Below are positions 54,128-60,181 of a stretch of 64,000 nt of DNA, piece after piece. The position numbers and the translations under genes are program-made. Numbering within the stretch: position 1 is the stretch's first letter; each line of letters opens with the position of its first letter. Source of the stretch: Kutzneria kofuensis (GTDB taxonomy: Bacteria > Actinomycetota > Actinomycetes > Mycobacteriales > Pseudonocardiaceae); contig NZ_JACHIR010000001.1 of assembly GCF_014203355.1 (NCBI RefSeq), positions 2,296,038-2,360,037 on the forward strand, in the 5' to 3' direction. The notes beneath the pieces are model-generated. The model did not search any database, was not told the origin of the DNA, and saw only the letters and a list, made by a program, of their open reading frames with translations.

Positions 54128-54835
54128 CTACCGGTTGCGCCACAACCAGATCACGTCCCGGCCGAACGACCACACCAGCGACGCCAGCGCGATCCCCACC
54201 ACCCCGACCGACGCGACGGTCGGCAGCAGGCCGGAAGCCGCGACCACGAGCAGCACCCCCTGCGCGGCGGCGACGGTCTTGCGGGCGAAGCTCGGCGGCA
54301 GCGCGCCCTTCAGCCAGGGCAGGATCCAGCTGGCCGCGACGAACGCGTACCGCATCCCGCCGATGACCAGCACCCACGGCCCCAGCGACTCGGCGACGAA
54401 TACGCTCAGCACGAGGATCAGGAACGCGTCGACCTCCATGTCGAACCGCGCCCCGACAGCGGTGGCGGTGCCGGTGCGGCGGGCCACCTGCCCGTCGACG
54501 CCGTCGAGGACCAGCGCCACCACGGACAGCGCCACGATGGCGGGCGTCGCGGGGCCGTGCATGAGGCCGTCGGCGACCAGTGCGGTGACGCCGCCGACCA
54601 GCGTGGCCCGGAACAGGGTGACCCAGTTGGCCTGGCCGAACGTCCTGGCCCGCGACCGGTGCAGGGCATAACCGAGGGTTGCGCACGTCACCACGGCGCA
54701 GGCGGTGCCGGCCGCCAACGCGCTCGGGCCGATCCGCAGCGCCGCCCACAGCAGGGTCAGCAACACCAGCTGCGCGCCGAGCCCAGCGACCACGCCGGGT
54801 GTCGCCGTCGATACGTGCCGAATATGAGTGGTCAC
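54128..54835 (-). CDS. CDP-alcohol phosphatidyltransferase-family membrane enzyme
   Basis: 235 residues from GTG 54835. The CDP-OH-P signature DGVDGQVARR...GARFDMEVDAF (DG-x2-AR-x8-G-x3-D-x3-D) is complete and carries the metal-binding Asp residues. About six hydrophobic helices. It transfers an alcohol phosphate from a CDP-activated donor to a hydroxyl acceptor, typically making phospholipid head groups. The acceptor is unknown. It starts 61 bp from the divergent MDR/QueD-like operon. In this setting a phospholipid-linked product is a reasonable guess. Confidence 0.88.
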   Translation of the reverse strand: MTTHIRHVSTATPGVVAGLGAQLVLLTLLWAALRIGPSALAAGTACAVVTCATLGYALHRSRARTFGQANWVTLFRATLVGGVTALVADGLMHGPATPAIVALSVVALVLDGVDGQVARRTGTATAVGARFDMEVDAFLILVLSVFVAESLGPWVLVIGGMRYAFVAASWILPWLKGALPPSFARKTVAAAQGVLLVVAASGLLPTVASVGVVGIALASLVWSFGRDVIWLWRNR

Positions 54836-54896
54836 CGCGCCTCCCCACGTCCTCTTGCCTCGGTCAGAACACGTCCGCTGTGATAGAAGGGTTCAA

Positions 54897-55880
54897 ATGG
54901 ACCTGACCGCACACGCGTTCTGGCTGCTACGCCCGGGTGAGGGCGAGATCCGTCCGGTGCAGCTGACCCCACCCGGCCCCGGCGAGGTGCTGGTCAGGGC
55001 GCTGTTCTCGGGTGTCAGCCGCGGCACCGAGACGCTGGTGTTCCGTGGCGGCGTGCCCGCCAGCCAGCACGACCTCATGCGAGCCCCGTTCCAGGACGGC
55101 GACTTCCCCGCCCCGGTCAAGTACGGCTACCTCAGCGTCGGCGTCGTCGAGGCCGGCGAGCCGGACCTGGTCGGGCGGACGGTGTTTTGTCTGTATCCCC
55201 ATCAGACACGGTACGTCGTCCCGGTGTCGGCGGTGACCGTCGTGCCCGACTCCGTGCCGTCTGCGCGCGCGGTGCTGGCCGGGACGGTGGAGACGGCCGT
55301 CAACGCCGTGTGGGACGCCGCTCCCCTGCTCGGCGACCGGATCGCGGTCATCGGCGCCGGGATGGTCGGGTGTTCGGTCGCCGCCGTGCTGGCCAAGTTC
55401 CCGGGGGTGCGGGTGCAGCTCGTGGACGTCGACGCCGCGCGGGCGTCGGTGGCCTCCGCGTTGGGCGTGGAGTTCGTGTCGCCGGACGACGCGGCCGGCG
55501 ACTGCGACCTGGTCGTGCACGCCAGCGCGACGTCGGCGGGGCTGACCCGGGCGCTCGAGCTGCTCACGCCGGAGGGCACGGTGGTGGAGCTGTCCTGGTA
55601 CGGCGACAAGCAGGTCAGCGTCCCACTCGGGGAGTTCTTCCACTCCCGGCGGCTGGTCGTGCGGAGCAGCCAGGTCGGCACCATTCCGCCGGCGCGGCGG
55701 GGCCGGCACACCTATGCCAGCCGACTCGCGCTGTCGCTGAACCTGCTGGCCGACCCGGTCTTCGACGCCCTGATCACCGGTTCCAGCGACTTCACCGAAC
55801 TGCCCACCGTCATGCCGCAGCTGGCCGACGGCCGGCTGCCGGCGCTGTGTCACCGCATCGTTTACCCGTCAGGAGGATGA
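54897..55880 (+). CDS. Medium-chain (zinc-independent-like) dehydrogenase
   Basis: 327 residues from ATG 54897. The MDR fold is seen in [40 protein letters not shown] and the cofactor loop [20 protein letters not shown]. The usual zinc Cys/His pair near residues 38 and 60 is missing (SGVSRGTE, no GHE), so it is probably a zinc-free reductase/dehydrogenase such as those acting on polyol- or sugar-like substrates. It is the first gene of the operon: its TGA overlaps the ATG that precedes the QueD-like start. Confidence 0.85.
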
Positions 55881-55882
55881 CC

Positions 55883-56281
55883 TTGTTCAGCATCACCGTC
55901 CGTGACCACATCATGGTCGCGCACAGCTTCAAGGGCGAGGTGTTCGGGCCGGCCCAGCGGCTGCACGGCGCGACGTTCGTGGTGGACGCGACGTTCCGGC
56001 GGGCCGAGCTGGACGACGACAACATCGTGGTGGACATCGGCCTGGCCAGCCAGCAGCTGGGCGAACTGCTCGGCGAGCTGAACTACCGGAACCTGGACGA
56101 GGAGCCGGCCTTCGCCGGCATCAACACCTCGACCGAGTTCCTGGCCAAGGTCATCGCCGACCGGCTGGCCGACCGCGTGCACGCCGGCGCCCTGGGCCCG
56201 TCGGCGAGCGGCCTGTCCGGCATCTCCGTCGCACTGCACGAGTCGCACAACGCCTGGGCCAGTTACGAGCGTTCACTGTGA
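55883..56281 (+). CDS. PTPS/QueD-like protein lacking canonical catalytic residues
   Basis: 132 residues. TTG 55883 is the likely start because AGGAGG (55871-55876) is six bases upstream; the ATG at 55877 directly touches that site. [14 protein letters not shown] and [13 protein letters not shown] place it in the 6-pyruvoyl-tetrahydropterin synthase/QueD family. The usual Cys before the second zinc motif is missing (GPAQRLHGA) and the HGH pair reads HGA. The catalytic His of the DH-xx-LN motif reads LNYRNLDE. The terminal Glu remains in ALHESHNAW. It probably catalyses a changed reaction or binds a pterin-like compound. Stop overlaps the next gene (GTGA). Confidence 0.82.
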
Positions 56282-57372
56282 CTTTGCCTGTGAACTCGGT
56301 TCACATGGTTTTTCCCGCCCAGGTCGCCGACGTTGCCGCCCCCAGCGGCGGCAACGTCTACGACCGGCGGGTGAGTCGCGGCTTGTCGTCGCTCGGCTGG
56401 AATGTCGACGAAATTCTGGTCGGCGGCGACTGGCCACGGCCCGACGCGGCGGCGCGGGCGAAGTTGCGGACCGCGCTCGACAATTTCGATTCCGGCGAAG
56501 TTGTGCTCGTCGACGGTTTGGTGGCGTGCGGCGTCCCGGAGATTGTTGTGCCGGCGGCCCGTCGACTGCGCGTCGTTGTGCTCGTCCACCTTCGGCTGGC
56601 GGCGGAGACCGGTTTGTCGCCGGTCGACCGCGACGACCTCGACCGCCGCGAACGAGAAGTCCTCCACGCGGCGCACTCGGTCGTCGCCACCAGCCCGTGG
56701 GCCGCCCGTGAACTGGCGCAACACCACGATTTGCCTGTGAATCGGGTTCACAGCGTCGACCCGGGTGTCGACCGTTCACCGCTGGCCCGCGGCACGGACG
56801 GCGCCTCGCGACTGCTCTGCGTTGCGTCGGTGACCCCACGCAAGGGCCACGACCTGCTTCTCGACGCATTGCTCACGATCGACGATCTCGACTGGCACCT
56901 CGTCTGCGTCGGAGCGCTCCACCACGCGCCGGAACACGTCACGCAGTTGCGGACTCGGTTGAAAACCAGCAGTGCGTGCGAAAAGGTCGACTTCGTCGGT
57001 CCGCAGCACGGCGACGAACTCGAGCAGAGCTACGACGCCGCCGATCTGTTCGTGCTCGCCTCCCGTGCGGAGACATACGGGATGGTCGTCACCGAAGCGT
57101 TGGCCCGTGGCATCCCCGTTCTCGCGACAAATGTCGACCCACTGCCGCAGACCGTCGGCCTGGCGCCGGACGGCAGCATGCCCGGGCTGCTCGTCCCCCC
57201 GGACGGGTTGGCGACCGCGCTCCGTAGTTGGCTAACGGAGTCTGACCTGCGGCGACGGCTGCGGACTTCGGCCCGTGACCGCCGTGGCATGCTGAAGGGG
57301 TGGGCGGAAACCTCGAACAGCCTGGCCAGAGTGTTGACGCAGGTGACGCGGAGTTCACCCCCGAGTGGCTGA
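56278..57372 (+). CDS. Family 4-type glycosyltransferase
   Basis: 364 residues from GTG 56278. N-terminal [20 protein letters not shown] is the donor/acceptor Gly-rich loop of GT-B enzymes. C-terminal [20 protein letters not shown] and [20 protein letters not shown] (the E-x7-E motif) are the GT4 signature, followed by [14 protein letters not shown]. It transfers a sugar from a nucleotide donor, probably in the cytoplasm. Start and stop overlap its neighbours, so it is part of one polycistron. Two similar palindrome-containing stretches occur at 56286-56304 and 56732-56750. Confidence 0.88.
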
Positions 57373-58145
57373 CGCTGCGTGAGCCGGTCGACGCGGCGGC
57401 CCGGTCCGCCGAACTCGTCGACCGCCTGGTCCGGCTCTTCGCCGGCCGGGACCGGCTCGTCATCCGCGATCTGGGCTGCGGAACCGGCTCGCTGGGCCGC
57501 TGGCTGAGCCCGCTGCTGCCGAATCCGCAGCACTGGATCATGCAGGACCGTGAACCAGATCTGCTGAGGCACGTGTATATGGATGTGACCTCCACAGCTC
57601 CCGTCACGGTCGAGACCCGGTTGGGTGATCTCGGCGGCGTCACCGCCGCCGACCTCGCCGGCACCTCGCTGGTGACCGCATCCGCCCTGCTCGACATCCT
57701 CACCGCCGGGGAAGTCGACCGGCTCGCCGCGGCGTGCGTCGACGCCCGCGTGCCCGCGCTCTTCACGCTTTCCGTGCTCGGCGAGGTCGAGCTGTCCCCC
57801 GCCGAGCCGTTCGACGCCGAGATCGCCGCGGCGTTCAACGATCACCAGCGCCGCGTCCAGGACGGTCGTCGGCTGCTCGGTCCGGACGCCCCCGCGGCGA
57901 TCGTCGAGTCGTTCGAGAAGCGCGGCGCCGCCGTGCAGGTCGCGCCGAGCCCGTGGCGGCTGGGCGAGGAGAACGCCGACCTGACCGCCGAGTGGTTGCG
58001 GGGCTGGGTCGGCGCCGCCGTCGAGCAGCGCCCGGAACTGACCGCCGAAGCCGCGAGCTACCTGCGGCAGCGTCTCGACGCGGTCGAGGCGGGTCGGCTG
58101 CGCGGCACCGTCGGGCACGTCGACGTGCTGGCGGTGCCGGCATGA
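57300..58145 (+). CDS. SAM-dependent methyltransferase-like protein
   Basis: 281 residues from GTG 57300; the first 73 bases overlap the glycosyltransferase gene. LVIRDLGCGTGSLGRWLSPL is motif I for SAM, with acidic DREPDLLRHV at the end of strand 2 and LVTASALLDILTAGEVDRLA as motif post-I. Members near QueD-like and GT genes are common in actinomycetes. Methylation of a glycolipid or pterin intermediate is plausible. Substrate unknown. The stop overlaps the next start (ATGA). Confidence 0.83.
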   Translation: MGGNLEQPGQSVDAGDAEFTPEWLTLREPVDAAARSAELVDRLVRLFAGRDRLVIRDLGCGTGSLGRWLSPLLPNPQHWIMQDREPDLLRHVYMDVTSTAPVTVETRLGDLGGVTAADLAGTSLVTASALLDILTAGEVDRLAAACVDARVPALFTLSVLGEVELSPAEPFDAEIAAAFNDHQRRVQDGRRLLGPDAPAAIVESFEKRGAAVQVAPSPWRLGEENADLTAEWLRGWVGAAVEQRPELTAEAASYLRQRLDAVEAGRLRGTVGHVDVLAVPA

Positions 58146-59158
58146 TGCGCGCGATCTGGCCCTGGCTGAAGATCGTCGCCGGCGCGGCCGTCATCGGCAT
58201 CCTGTTCTGGCGGCTGGGCACCGGGGCCTTTGTGGACGGTCTCCGCGAGATCAACCTGTGGGGCGTCGCCGCCGCGCTCGGCATCGGCTTCCTCACCACG
58301 CTGTTCAGCGCCTGGCGCTGGTGCGTCGTCGCCGACGGCCTGGGGCTGAAGCTGTCCCTGCGCACCGCGGTCGCCGACTACTACCGTGCGCTGTTCATCA
58401 ACGCCGTGCTTCCCGGCGGTGTGCTCGGCGACGTGCATCGCGCCGTGCAGAACGGTCACGACACCGGTGACGTCGGCCGTGGCGTGCGGGCGGTCGTGCT
58501 GGAGCGGACCGGCGGCCAGCTGGCGATCCTCGGCGTCGGCGTCGGCGTGCTGCTCACCGATCCCACGTTGATCGCCCGGGTCATCGGGGACATCGTGCCC
58601 GCGCCGGCCGCGATCGTCGTCGGCGTCCTGATCGTCGTCGCCGCCGGCGTCGTGCTGGCCACGTCCTCCCGCCTGCCGCGCTGGCGGGAGGCCATCGCCA
58701 GGACGATGGTCGACATCCGCCGCAGCCTGCTGAGCCGCCAGTCGTGGCCGGCCGTCGTGGTGCTGTCGGCCGCGACGCTGGCCGGGCATCTCACGCTGTT
58801 CGTCGTCGCCGCGCGGTCCGCCGGCTCCACCGCGTCGATCGGCCAGCTGCTGCCGCTGCTGGTGTTGGCGCTGATCGCGATGGGTCTGCCGATCAACGTC
58901 GGCGGCTGGGGCCCGCGCGAGGGTGTCGCCGCGCTCGCCTTCGCCGCCGCCGGGCTCGGTGCCACGCAGGGCGTCACCACCGCCGTTGTCTACGGGGTGC
59001 TGACGCTGATCTCCAGCCTGCCCGGCGCCGCCGTGCTCGTGCTGCAACGCGTGCACCGCCCGACCGCCACGGTCACCGTCGAACGGACCGCGCCGGAACC
59101 GGTCACGGTCATCGCCGAGCCGATCGTCCGCCGGAAGGTGCAGCCGCAGGCCGCCTGA
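58142..59158 (+). CDS. Flippase-like integral membrane protein (LPG synthase TM family)
   Basis: 338 residues from ATG 58142. Eight or so membrane helices include AAALGIGFLTTLFSAWRWCV, PLLVLALIAMGLPINVGGWG and VVYGVLTLISSLPGAAVLVL. YYRALFINAVLPGGVLGDVH and GGWGPREGVAALAF are highly typical of the lysylphosphatidylglycerol synthase TM/AglD-like family, here without the aminoacyl transferase domain. Proteins of this type are thought to move or modify lipid-linked compounds at the cytoplasmic membrane. Last member of the overlapping operon that starts at 54897. Confidence 0.88.
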   Translation: MMRAIWPWLKIVAGAAVIGILFWRLGTGAFVDGLREINLWGVAAALGIGFLTTLFSAWRWCVVADGLGLKLSLRTAVADYYRALFINAVLPGGVLGDVHRAVQNGHDTGDVGRGVRAVVLERTGGQLAILGVGVGVLLTDPTLIARVIGDIVPAPAAIVVGVLIVVAAGVVLATSSRLPRWREAIARTMVDIRRSLLSRQSWPAVVVLSAATLAGHLTLFVVAARSAGSTASIGQLLPLLVLALIAMGLPINVGGWGPREGVAALAFAAAGLGATQGVTTAVVYGVLTLISSLPGAAVLVLQRVHRPTATVTVERTAPEPVTVIAEPIVRRKVQPQAA

Positions 59159-60181
59159 GTGGGCAGCCCGGATGTCACGATCAGGTGGTCAGAGGTGGCC
59201 GCGGTTCACAAGTTGATCTGGGATCCTGTGCCGGTGACCGAGTACGCCTACGACCGGACCCGAAACGTCCTGCTGGCGGTGTGGAGCGTCGGCATCGGCA
59301 CCGTCGCGGACACGGTCGTGGCGTTCGATGACCTACCCGCTCCCGAGTACGCCCTGCAGCTGGGCTACGAGCTGACGCAGCTGTCCAAGCACCTGTGGCG
59401 CACCTACACCCATCCGCTGACCGAGGCCGTCGACCAGCCGGACGAGGCGCTCAGCCGGGCCCGCAACCAGTTGGCGATCGACCTGGTGACGGGGGCCATG
59501 CGGGATCCGCACCTGCCGGTGGGCGACCAGATGCAGATCTGCGAGAGCGAGGTGCTGGAGGCCGGCCACCAGGTGGGCCGGATCCTGCACCGCATCGGCG
59601 ACCGCGGCGTCACCGATCAGGCCGTCACCGACGTCGAGGCGGAGATCGACGCGCTGCGCCGGGCCGCGCTCGGCGACCTGACCGGCCGTGCCAACCAGGC
59701 GGTGGTGCTGACCAGGTCGGATCCGCAGCCGCAGCAGGTGGCCGCCGCGCACGCGTACTTCGAGAAGGACCCGATGGGGCCGCCCGAGCTGTACACGAAG
59801 ATCGACGCCACCTCGGCGGCGGTCGCCGCCGTGCACTGGCTGGACGCCGCCCTGATGATCGCTTCCCGCGCCGCCAGCGGCAATCTGTCCGACGCACCGC
59901 CGACGTGTCGACACAACCACGTGGATGAACTGGCCGACGAGGTGCCGGTGCTGGTCGTGCAGCGGCTGGATCGTGGCGAGCTGCCCCGGGACGTGGTGAT
60001 GGCGCTGGTCAGGGACGGCATGCCGGCGCGGACGCTGCTGGAGCAGCTGCTGATCGGCATCCACAACGCCTGGCAGCTCTACGGCGAGTGGAACAAAACT
60101 GTGCCGGCCGACCAGATTAATGACACATTTCGCGCCCGGACGAGGAGAATGGCCGTCGAAGGACGAGACCGCATCCTGTAG
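59159..60181 (+). CDS. Hypothetical protein of unknown family
   Basis: 340 residues from GTG 59159, immediately after the flippase-like stop; GTG 59195 is an alternative because no clear ribosome-binding site precedes 59159. The protein is largely helical and acidic, without signal peptide or membrane segment. Features seen: VAAVHKLIWDPVPVTEYAYD, LQLGYELTQLSKHLWRTYTH, and LPPDVV-type loops; CRHNHVDELADEVP holds a Cys-His pair. No catalytic motif recognised. It might belong to the preceding operon, although it has no overlap with it. Confidence 0.65.
   Translation: MGSPDVTIRWSEVAAVHKLIWDPVPVTEYAYDRTRNVLLAVWSVGIGTVADTVVAFDDLPAPEYALQLGYELTQLSKHLWRTYTHPLTEAVDQPDEALSRARNQLAIDLVTGAMRDPHLPVGDQMQICESEVLEAGHQVGRILHRIGDRGVTDQAVTDVEAEIDALRRAALGDLTGRANQAVVLTRSDPQPQQVAAAHAYFEKDPMGPPELYTKIDATSAAVAAVHWLDAALMIASRAASGNLSDAPPTCRHNHVDELADEVPVLVVQRLDRGELPRDVVMALVRDGMPARTLLEQLLIGIHNAWQLYGEWNKTVPADQINDTFRARTRRMAVEGRDRIL

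Follow-up and report, generated by a model that had tools for sequence, protein, structure and literature searches.

Proteins of the PTPS family are divided by their signatures into PTPS-I or QueD (CxxxHGH), PTPS-II (CxxxxxHGH), PTPS-III (ExxHGH) and PTPS-IV (FGPAQ) (PMC5041015; available part of PMC5445326). For PTPS-IV genes, a genomic neighbourhood that includes PF00925 and PF01872 has already been published (available part of PMC5445326). A creatininase-family protein of Sinorhizobium meliloti, BrbF, has been shown to be a FAPy deformylase (available part of PMC9478397). This report concerns a six-gene locus with a PTPS-IV gene from Kutzneria kofuensis, located in a stretch of 64,000 nucleotides (contig NZ_JACHIR010000001.1, positions 2,296,038 to 2,360,037) that is called the window below. 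We lean, with modest confidence, towards reading the six genes as the late part of a conserved GTP-derived pathway, in which a pterin-like head group would be glycosylated, methylated and, in Actinomycetia, linked to a lipid and flipped. The locus is composed of the following genes.

54128-54835, minus strand: CDP-alcohol phosphotransferase, GTG start; Pfam PF01066 (CDP-OH_P_transf), 2e-11
54897-55880, plus strand: MDR dehydrogenase, ATG start at 54897; best match ADH_zinc_N, 3.2e-6, below cut-off
55877-56281, plus strand: PTPS-IV protein with the FGPAQ signature, SCO6650 ortholog; PF01242 (PTPS), 1.3e-23
56278-57372, plus strand: GT4 glycosyltransferase; PF00534 (Glycos_transf_1), 1.4e-24
57300-58145, plus strand: predicted class I S-adenosylmethionine methyltransferase of an operon-specific family (AlphaFold model); no Pfam family over cut-off
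58142-59158, plus strand: flippase-like integral membrane protein of the LPG_synthase_TM type; PF03706, 4.9e-31

The genes, their place in the window and their overlaps are as given in a preliminary description of this DNA, and were confirmed from the sequence and Pfam matches. The phosphotransferase gene is divergent from the MDR gene and separated from it by 61 bp (54836-54896). The five genes on the plus strand overlap successively by ATGA (55877-55880), GTGA (56278-56281), 73 bases (57300-57372) and ATGA (58142-58145). A pattern scan detected no promoter-like site across the locus and one terminator-like site, which is within chance (mean of 1.7 in shuffled sequences), so the claim of a single transcript rests on the gene overlaps.

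Conservation of the locus and identity of its proteins

Two samples were compared with the window. The first contains the best 80 of 360 confirmed PTPS relatives from a protein search of named genomes and the window itself (81 loci), and is biased to close relatives. The 80 fetched loci belong to the families Streptomycetaceae (53), Pseudonocardiaceae (12), Micromonosporaceae (7), Thermomonosporaceae (6) and Nocardiopsidaceae (2). Their genes were called and clustered by a script, which is imperfect and missed the window glycosyltransferase and the methyltransferase of locus L029. The second sample contains 197 genomes spread evenly over the phylum, including the window genome.

The five genes were called in the same order and on the same strand in 73 of the 81 loci; the window is outside the 73 because its glycosyltransferase was missed. 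Synteny, for which the preliminary description pointed to similar clusters of other actinomycetes and proposed a check, is thus conserved well beyond the genus. PTPS was called in all 81 loci, MDR in 80, the phosphotransferase and the methyltransferase in 77 each, and the flippase and the glycosyltransferase in 76 each. As judged from gene order, a chance grouping of the five genes is ruled out. Of 79 MDR-PTPS pairs, 59 have a called gap of more than 50 bp, and tight overlap is therefore not general. In the phylum sample the methyltransferase is present in seven genomes, and the identical seven carry a close PTPS-IV (E at most 1.2e-73); a PTPS-IV locus was found in at most 23 of the 197. Some loci deviate from the common arrangement. 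In two loci of Amycolatopsis (L029 and L038) the operon is shortened to the phosphotransferase, MDR and PTPS genes, with the methyltransferase of L029 directly after PTPS, and the paired absence of glycosyltransferase and flippase calls beside it suggests that these two act together. Additional genes were called between glycosyltransferase and methyltransferase in L077 and between MDR and PTPS in L036.

The PTPS protein of the window is, by signature and profile match, an ortholog of SCO6650 and a member of subfamily PTPS-IV of COG0720. It contains the FGPAQ signature, of which FGPA, together with HGA, is invariant in 24 of 24 aligned sequences and Q is present in at least 90%. It matches PDB 3d7j (SCO6650) at 3.7e-79, the sole solved structure found by the PTPS profile at E up to 0.001. 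The label QueD-like in the preliminary description had to be replaced: the CxxxHGH motif of PTPS-I is absent (the window has AQRLHGA), and the score with the QueD model TIGR03367 is 34.6 bits versus a cut-off of 89.25. PTPS-II and PTPS-III were rejected as well, the window protein having HGA and neither Cys nor Glu at that place. E122, a residue with a role in pterin binding, is invariant across 11 aligned rows.

The MDR protein also has a short Rossmann match (3HCDH_N) slightly over its own cut-off, and its best NCBIfam model is bchC (49.3 bits, cut-off 291.25); it appears to be a distant relative of the BchC and threonine dehydrogenase families. The GT4 gene comes after PTPS in most loci, and solved relatives of its product at E <= 1e-20 (profile search) include D-inositol-3-phosphate and phosphatidylinositol-mannoside glycosyltransferases. 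The methyltransferase matches Methyltransf_25 at 4.8e-4, below cut-off. Its AlphaFold model (pLDDT 90.7) predicts a class I fold with confidence, and the fold search matched many unrelated class I enzymes and gave no hint of the substrate. The flippase-like protein scores 26.4 bits with TIGR00374, against 43.2 bits for the cut-off.

The motif D..DG..AR-x8-G...D...D, presumably that of CDP-alcohol phosphotransferases, is present in 76 of the 77 called phosphotransferase genes, including the gene of the window; the exception, in L036, is a shortened call. The nearest solved folds to the phosphotransferase model (pLDDT 87.3) are those of PGP synthase (7drk and 7drj) with weak E values of 0.005-0.04. 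No fold match at E <= 0.001 and no phmmer match among solved structures was obtained. The enzyme probably catalyzes the lipid-linking step, in which CDP-diacylglycerol would react with a head-group alcohol.

A gene of 340 amino acids (59159-60181) begins immediately past the stop of the flippase gene and matches no model of Pfam or NCBIfam at E <= 0.001. A gene similar to it by eye also follows the flippase gene in Kutzneria buriramensis (L004:13508-14464), and it is possibly an addition to the operon in Kutzneria. An operator-like palindrome, TTTGCCTGTGAANNNGGTTCACA, occurs in two exact copies within the glycosyltransferase gene (56283-56305 and 56730-56752) and in one exact copy in L004 of K. 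buriramensis. Its expectation in the window is 0.01, for a pattern that was picked post hoc, and the duplication may simply mirror a repeated PVNxVH peptide.

Candidate head-group genes in relatives and in the window genome

Genes encoding GTP cyclohydrolase II (GCHII) and a creatininase-family protein lie within 71 and 65 of the 81 loci, respectively (motif scan). The residue equivalent to Tyr105 was located by alignment, with the numbering of 2bz0, which we take to be E. coli RibA. In the 71 GCHII proteins this residue is Met (51), His (11), Gln (2) or Tyr (7). All 64 loci with a non-Tyr GCHII carry the creatininase-family gene, and none of the seven loci with a Tyr GCHII does. The remaining creatininase-family gene is in L014, where no GCHII is nearby; this gene (L014:13009-13611) looks degraded at its C-terminus. 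Loci L025 and L078 end at contig ends, and a missing GCHII says little there. The pattern fits the formation of 2-amino-5-formylamino-6-ribosylamino-pyrimidinone 5'-phosphate (FAPy) by the Met, His or Gln type with separate deformylation by the creatininase-family enzyme, whereas the Tyr type would give 2,5-diamino-6-ribosylamino-4(3H)-pyrimidinone 5'-phosphate (DARoPP) directly; both routes would thus end in DARoPP. An operon-type creatininase (E <1e-90) is present in six of the 197 phylum genomes, namely five of the seven genomes with the methyltransferase and genome G028 (L147:9338-10033, 54.5% identical).

A GCHII tree of 92 rows was constructed. L085, L089 and L125 were left out as duplicates, identical GCHII rows were used once, and rows of fewer than 150 residues were omitted for RibD_C. 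Four of 24 further GCHII loci (L120, L121, L126 and L128) are off-motif and stand outside the tree with their Tyr state unread. All 62 non-Tyr rows cluster together, and on the tree as a whole each trait changes once, giving one independent pair. A repeated joint origin of Tyr loss and creatininase was considered and rejected, and with a single change of each the tree offers no independent support.

A stand-alone RibD_C reductase is encoded in all seven loci of the Tyr type (fused to GCHII in L080). Three other loci (L101, L143 and L148) have a Tyr-type GCHII and RibD_C with no creatininase match. The operon-linked RibD_C proteins fall into three groups on the tree, which suggests repeated recruitment, uncertain on account of long branches. 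The RibD_C proteins of L005 and L096 match best TIGR01508, the archaeal riboflavin reductase that acts on the un-deaminated substrate, with 145.8 and 142 bits (against 90.3 and 79.9 for bacterial RibD), yet these scores are under the equivalog cut-off of 186.45.

The window genome (G000) differs in arrangement. The 64-kb window contains neither GCHII nor RibD_C, and no creatininase-family gene is present beside its operon. A stand-alone GCHII gene (C1:631697-632458) immediately followed by RibD_C is located at G000:C1:631697-633123, about 1.7 Mb from the operon. The GCHII retains the Tyr105-equivalent. The RibD_C is nested among the operon-linked reductases with support of 100/97, one neighbour (L031) being on a long branch. 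The genome of K. buriramensis (L004) carries the same pair. The first two steps of the pathway are probably served by this distal pair in the window genome. The two genes of the creatininase family (PF02633) in this genome share only about 32% identity with the operon type. The small head group that the preliminary description had these genes build is thus likely to be pterin-like and GTP-derived, whereas the window itself lacks the genes that would form it and candidates for them lie elsewhere in the genome.

A distant version of the locus was identified in family f17. All 14 fetched loci, picked by their PTPS hits, carry a divergent FolB gene followed by RibD_C, MDR, PTPS and glycosyltransferase genes, and an extra GCHII gene precedes RibD_C in L143. 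The one FolB scanned exceeds its NCBIfam cut-off (97.1 vs 72.15). A methyltransferase gene follows the glycosyltransferase gene in 12 of the 14 loci, the two others (L141 and L144) ending at a contig end at this point, and is fused to it in L103; BLAST detected no resemblance between this methyltransferase and that of the window. The PTPS members of this family retain HGH and lack the Cys in the alignment. At least four f17 genomes (G084, G115, G125 and G135) have no PTPS hit at the threshold. Another distant locus, L101, contains GCHII, RibD_C, flippase, glycosyltransferase and PTPS genes on a contig of 3.8 kb. L100 is limited to MDR, PTPS and a weakly matching glycosyltransferase. Of the four remaining PTPS hits, the fourth being in G175, the three that were fetched (L104, L145 and L146) have no such locus.

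Proposed pathway and alternative explanations

From the observed gene families, their order, co-occurrence and residue patterns we infer the pathway outlined below, including each reaction, the presence of a pterin ring, the attachment to a lipid and the sequence of the steps. In the first step, GCHII would produce FAPy, which the creatininase-family enzyme would deformylate, or a Tyr-bearing GCHII would produce DARoPP directly. In the second step, the RibD_C reductase would act on an intermediate that retains the 2-amino group. MDR and PTPS-IV would then turn this intermediate into a pterin-like head group, with MDR oxidising the sugar side chain. In the fourth step, a sugar would be added by the GT4 enzyme and a methyl group by the methyltransferase. 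In Actinomycetia, the phosphotransferase would finally couple the head group to a lipid derived from CDP-diacylglycerol, and the flippase-like protein would move the product outward. A GTP-derived, pterin-like head group is likely because of the GCHII, creatininase-family, RibD_C and distant FolB neighbours, and a pterin is favoured because FolB adjoins the distant loci and the 2-amino group is possibly retained. Sugar and methyl transfer both seem to be conserved steps, since a methyltransferase comes after the glycosyltransferase even in f17.

Several observations weigh against this pathway. No match to the phosphotransferase or the flippase was found in any of the 14 f17 loci by tblastn with the window proteins only, a search that could miss far relatives. 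Glycosyltransferase and flippase genes were not called beside the operon in L029 and L038 (operon surroundings only). RibD_C is present in only nine of the 64 creatininase-linked loci within the fetched stretch. The reductases of L103 and L037 have no clear preference for TIGR01508 over bacterial RibD (140.7 vs 125.1 and 92.7 vs 91.5 bits, respectively). The association of the Tyr position with the creatininase counts statistically as one event because of the single change on the GCHII tree. In G028, the 12.4 kb fetched around the creatininase-family gene contain no match to the operon or to GCHII. The genomes of L005, L050 and L076 appear to have no dedicated GCHII, because their only GCHII match lies in a long RibBA-like frame. 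The lineage of the window genome's GCHII occurs on the tree also away from any operon, and so the connection between the distal pair and the operon is likely but unproven. Finally, three features of the aligned QueD chains, namely the Cys, the second histidine in HGH and the Asp-His pair, are missing from the PTPS-IV of the window, so that its reaction does not appear to be readable from QueD.

A more specific form of the pathway, drawn by analogy from established chemistry, is a pterin route independent of GTP cyclohydrolase I that ends in an outward-facing, redox-active pterin glycolipid; we regard it as speculative and rather improbable. DARoPP from GCHII (with the creatininase where present) would be reduced at C1' of the ribosyl group by RibD_C, and the C2' alcohol would be oxidised by MDR. 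This would give a 2'-keto amine, an intermediate of the type that GTP cyclohydrolase I generates through an Amadori rearrangement. Ring closure, unaided or on PTPS-IV, could then yield 7,8-dihydroneopterin 3'-phosphate. The pterin would next receive a sugar and a methyl group, be coupled to a phospholipid and be flipped, perhaps as a product of aerial or sporulating hyphae. In Streptomyces coelicolor, SCO6652 is upregulated in MII by 4.3 log2 units at 48 h and by 4.1 at 72 h (PMC3610822), and SCO6655 is on a list of genes anticorrelated with predicted flux, the majority of them described as upregulated in stationary phase (available part of PMC2853524). The two papers suggest late expression of the cluster, in which SCO6652 and SCO6655 are presumed to lie from their gene numbers.

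The alternative with most in its favour, though unlikely in our view, is a soluble glycosylated and methylated pterin or pyrimidine, the phosphotransferase and flippase being later or unrelated additions. The f17 loci, all of which have RibD_C, MDR, PTPS and glycosyltransferase genes (mostly with a methyltransferase) and no match to the two lipid-related proteins, are what this explanation predicts, and the fusion of glycosyltransferase and methyltransferase in L103 agrees with it. Pterin glycosides are also known from cyanobacteria (available part of PMC13259868) and Chlorobium (available part of PMC5683033). Against it, the phosphotransferase was called in 77 and the flippase in 76 of the 81 actinomycete loci, and the distant locus L101 also has a flippase match. 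Of the product sketched in the preliminary description, glycosylation and methylation thus look conserved, whereas the lipid part is not universal.

Similarly unlikely is an open pyrimidine head group (a nucleoside-like ribosylamino- or ribitylamino-pyrimidine) that never becomes a pterin, with PTPS-IV catalyzing a different chemistry. GCHII, the creatininase-family deformylase and RibD_C are early riboflavin-type enzymes, and the QueD residues missing from PTPS-IV are compatible with such a product. It is opposed by the membership of PTPS-IV in the PTPS family with E122 invariant, by the FolB genes that adjoin all 14 distant loci, and by the resemblance of two of the four scanned reductases to the pre-deamination type.

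A role of PTPS-IV in the synthesis of coenzyme F420 (deazaflavin) is known only from an unpublished remark on archaea (PMC5041015) and is very improbable. Among the 23 genomes with the locus, the majority have CofH over its cut-off, but so do 97 of the 197 phylum genomes in all, so that at least 74 CofH genomes have no locus; three genomes (G008, G155 and G194, the last two being fragmented drafts) carry the locus with CofH not over cut-off. Folate supply was considered and rejected: GTP cyclohydrolase I is present in 23 of 23 genomes with the locus, which is therefore not the sole source of pterins there.

A QueD-type step in the synthesis of queuosine or other 7-deazaguanines is hardly credible: the protein belongs to the PTPS family and matches the QueD model weakly (1.9e-8), but it lacks the motif and scores far below the cut-off given above, and the window genome has two other PTPS domains in one open frame of 324 amino acids (G000:C1:3369294-3369986), a tandem QueD next to a gene that looks QueE-like by eye. 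That unrelated genes are merely neighbours can practically be dismissed, the loose MDR-PTPS spacing of many loci being outweighed by an order that is kept in five families and partly in a distant one.

Comparison with known systems

The preliminary description called the pathway undescribed, which is too strong with respect to the genes, since the PTPS-IV subfamily, part of its neighbourhood and one structure, that of the ortholog, are already known; a product assigned to this gene set was not found in the open papers searched. The pattern of creatininase and Tyr, the distal pair of the window genome and the distant FolB-linked version are new. The gene set is kept in Streptomyces, Actinomadura, Micromonospora and Amycolatopsis, and partly in a distant family, and thus probably matters for their biology. 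Formation of a lipid-anchored or glycosylated pterin via GCHII, if true, would open a second route to pterins and add a new class of head groups to membrane lipids. It would also provide a function for PTPS-IV (3d7j) and explain why S. coelicolor retains a GCHII that reportedly stops at FAPy.

The GCHII of S. coelicolor, SCO6655, is said, after work by Spoonamore et al. in 2006, to carry Met in place of Tyr and to stop at FAPy. Similarly, 64 of the 71 operon-linked GCHII proteins of relatives lack Tyr at that place, whereas the candidate GCHII of the window genome retains it and is located 1.7 Mb away. With PTPS-IV of COG0720 the locus shares the FGPAQ signature and the ortholog-level match to 3d7j. 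Of the published neighbourhood, PF00925 is found in 71 of the 81 loci and PF01872 in fewer, and neither is present in the window. The published account, in its available part, names no product and does not mention the glycosyltransferase, methyltransferase, flippase, phosphotransferase or creatininase (PMC5445326).

The creatininase-family protein of L006 (PF02633, 1.7e-63) shares its family with BrbF and with archaeal ArfB, and the same reaction is proposed for it. The likeness to BrbF is one of family, and the protein is under every NCBIfam cut-off (MftE, 133.8 of 172 bits; ArfB, 36.3 of 180 bits). The pterin glycosides of cyanobacteria and Chlorobium, for which a pteridine glycosyltransferase is known, resemble the proposed product in the joining of a pterin to a sugar, here presumably by the GT4 enzyme, a likeness of reaction. 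Those glycosides start from tetrahydrobiopterin via GTP cyclohydrolase I, whereas a start from GCHII and a lipid-linking step are proposed for the locus described here.

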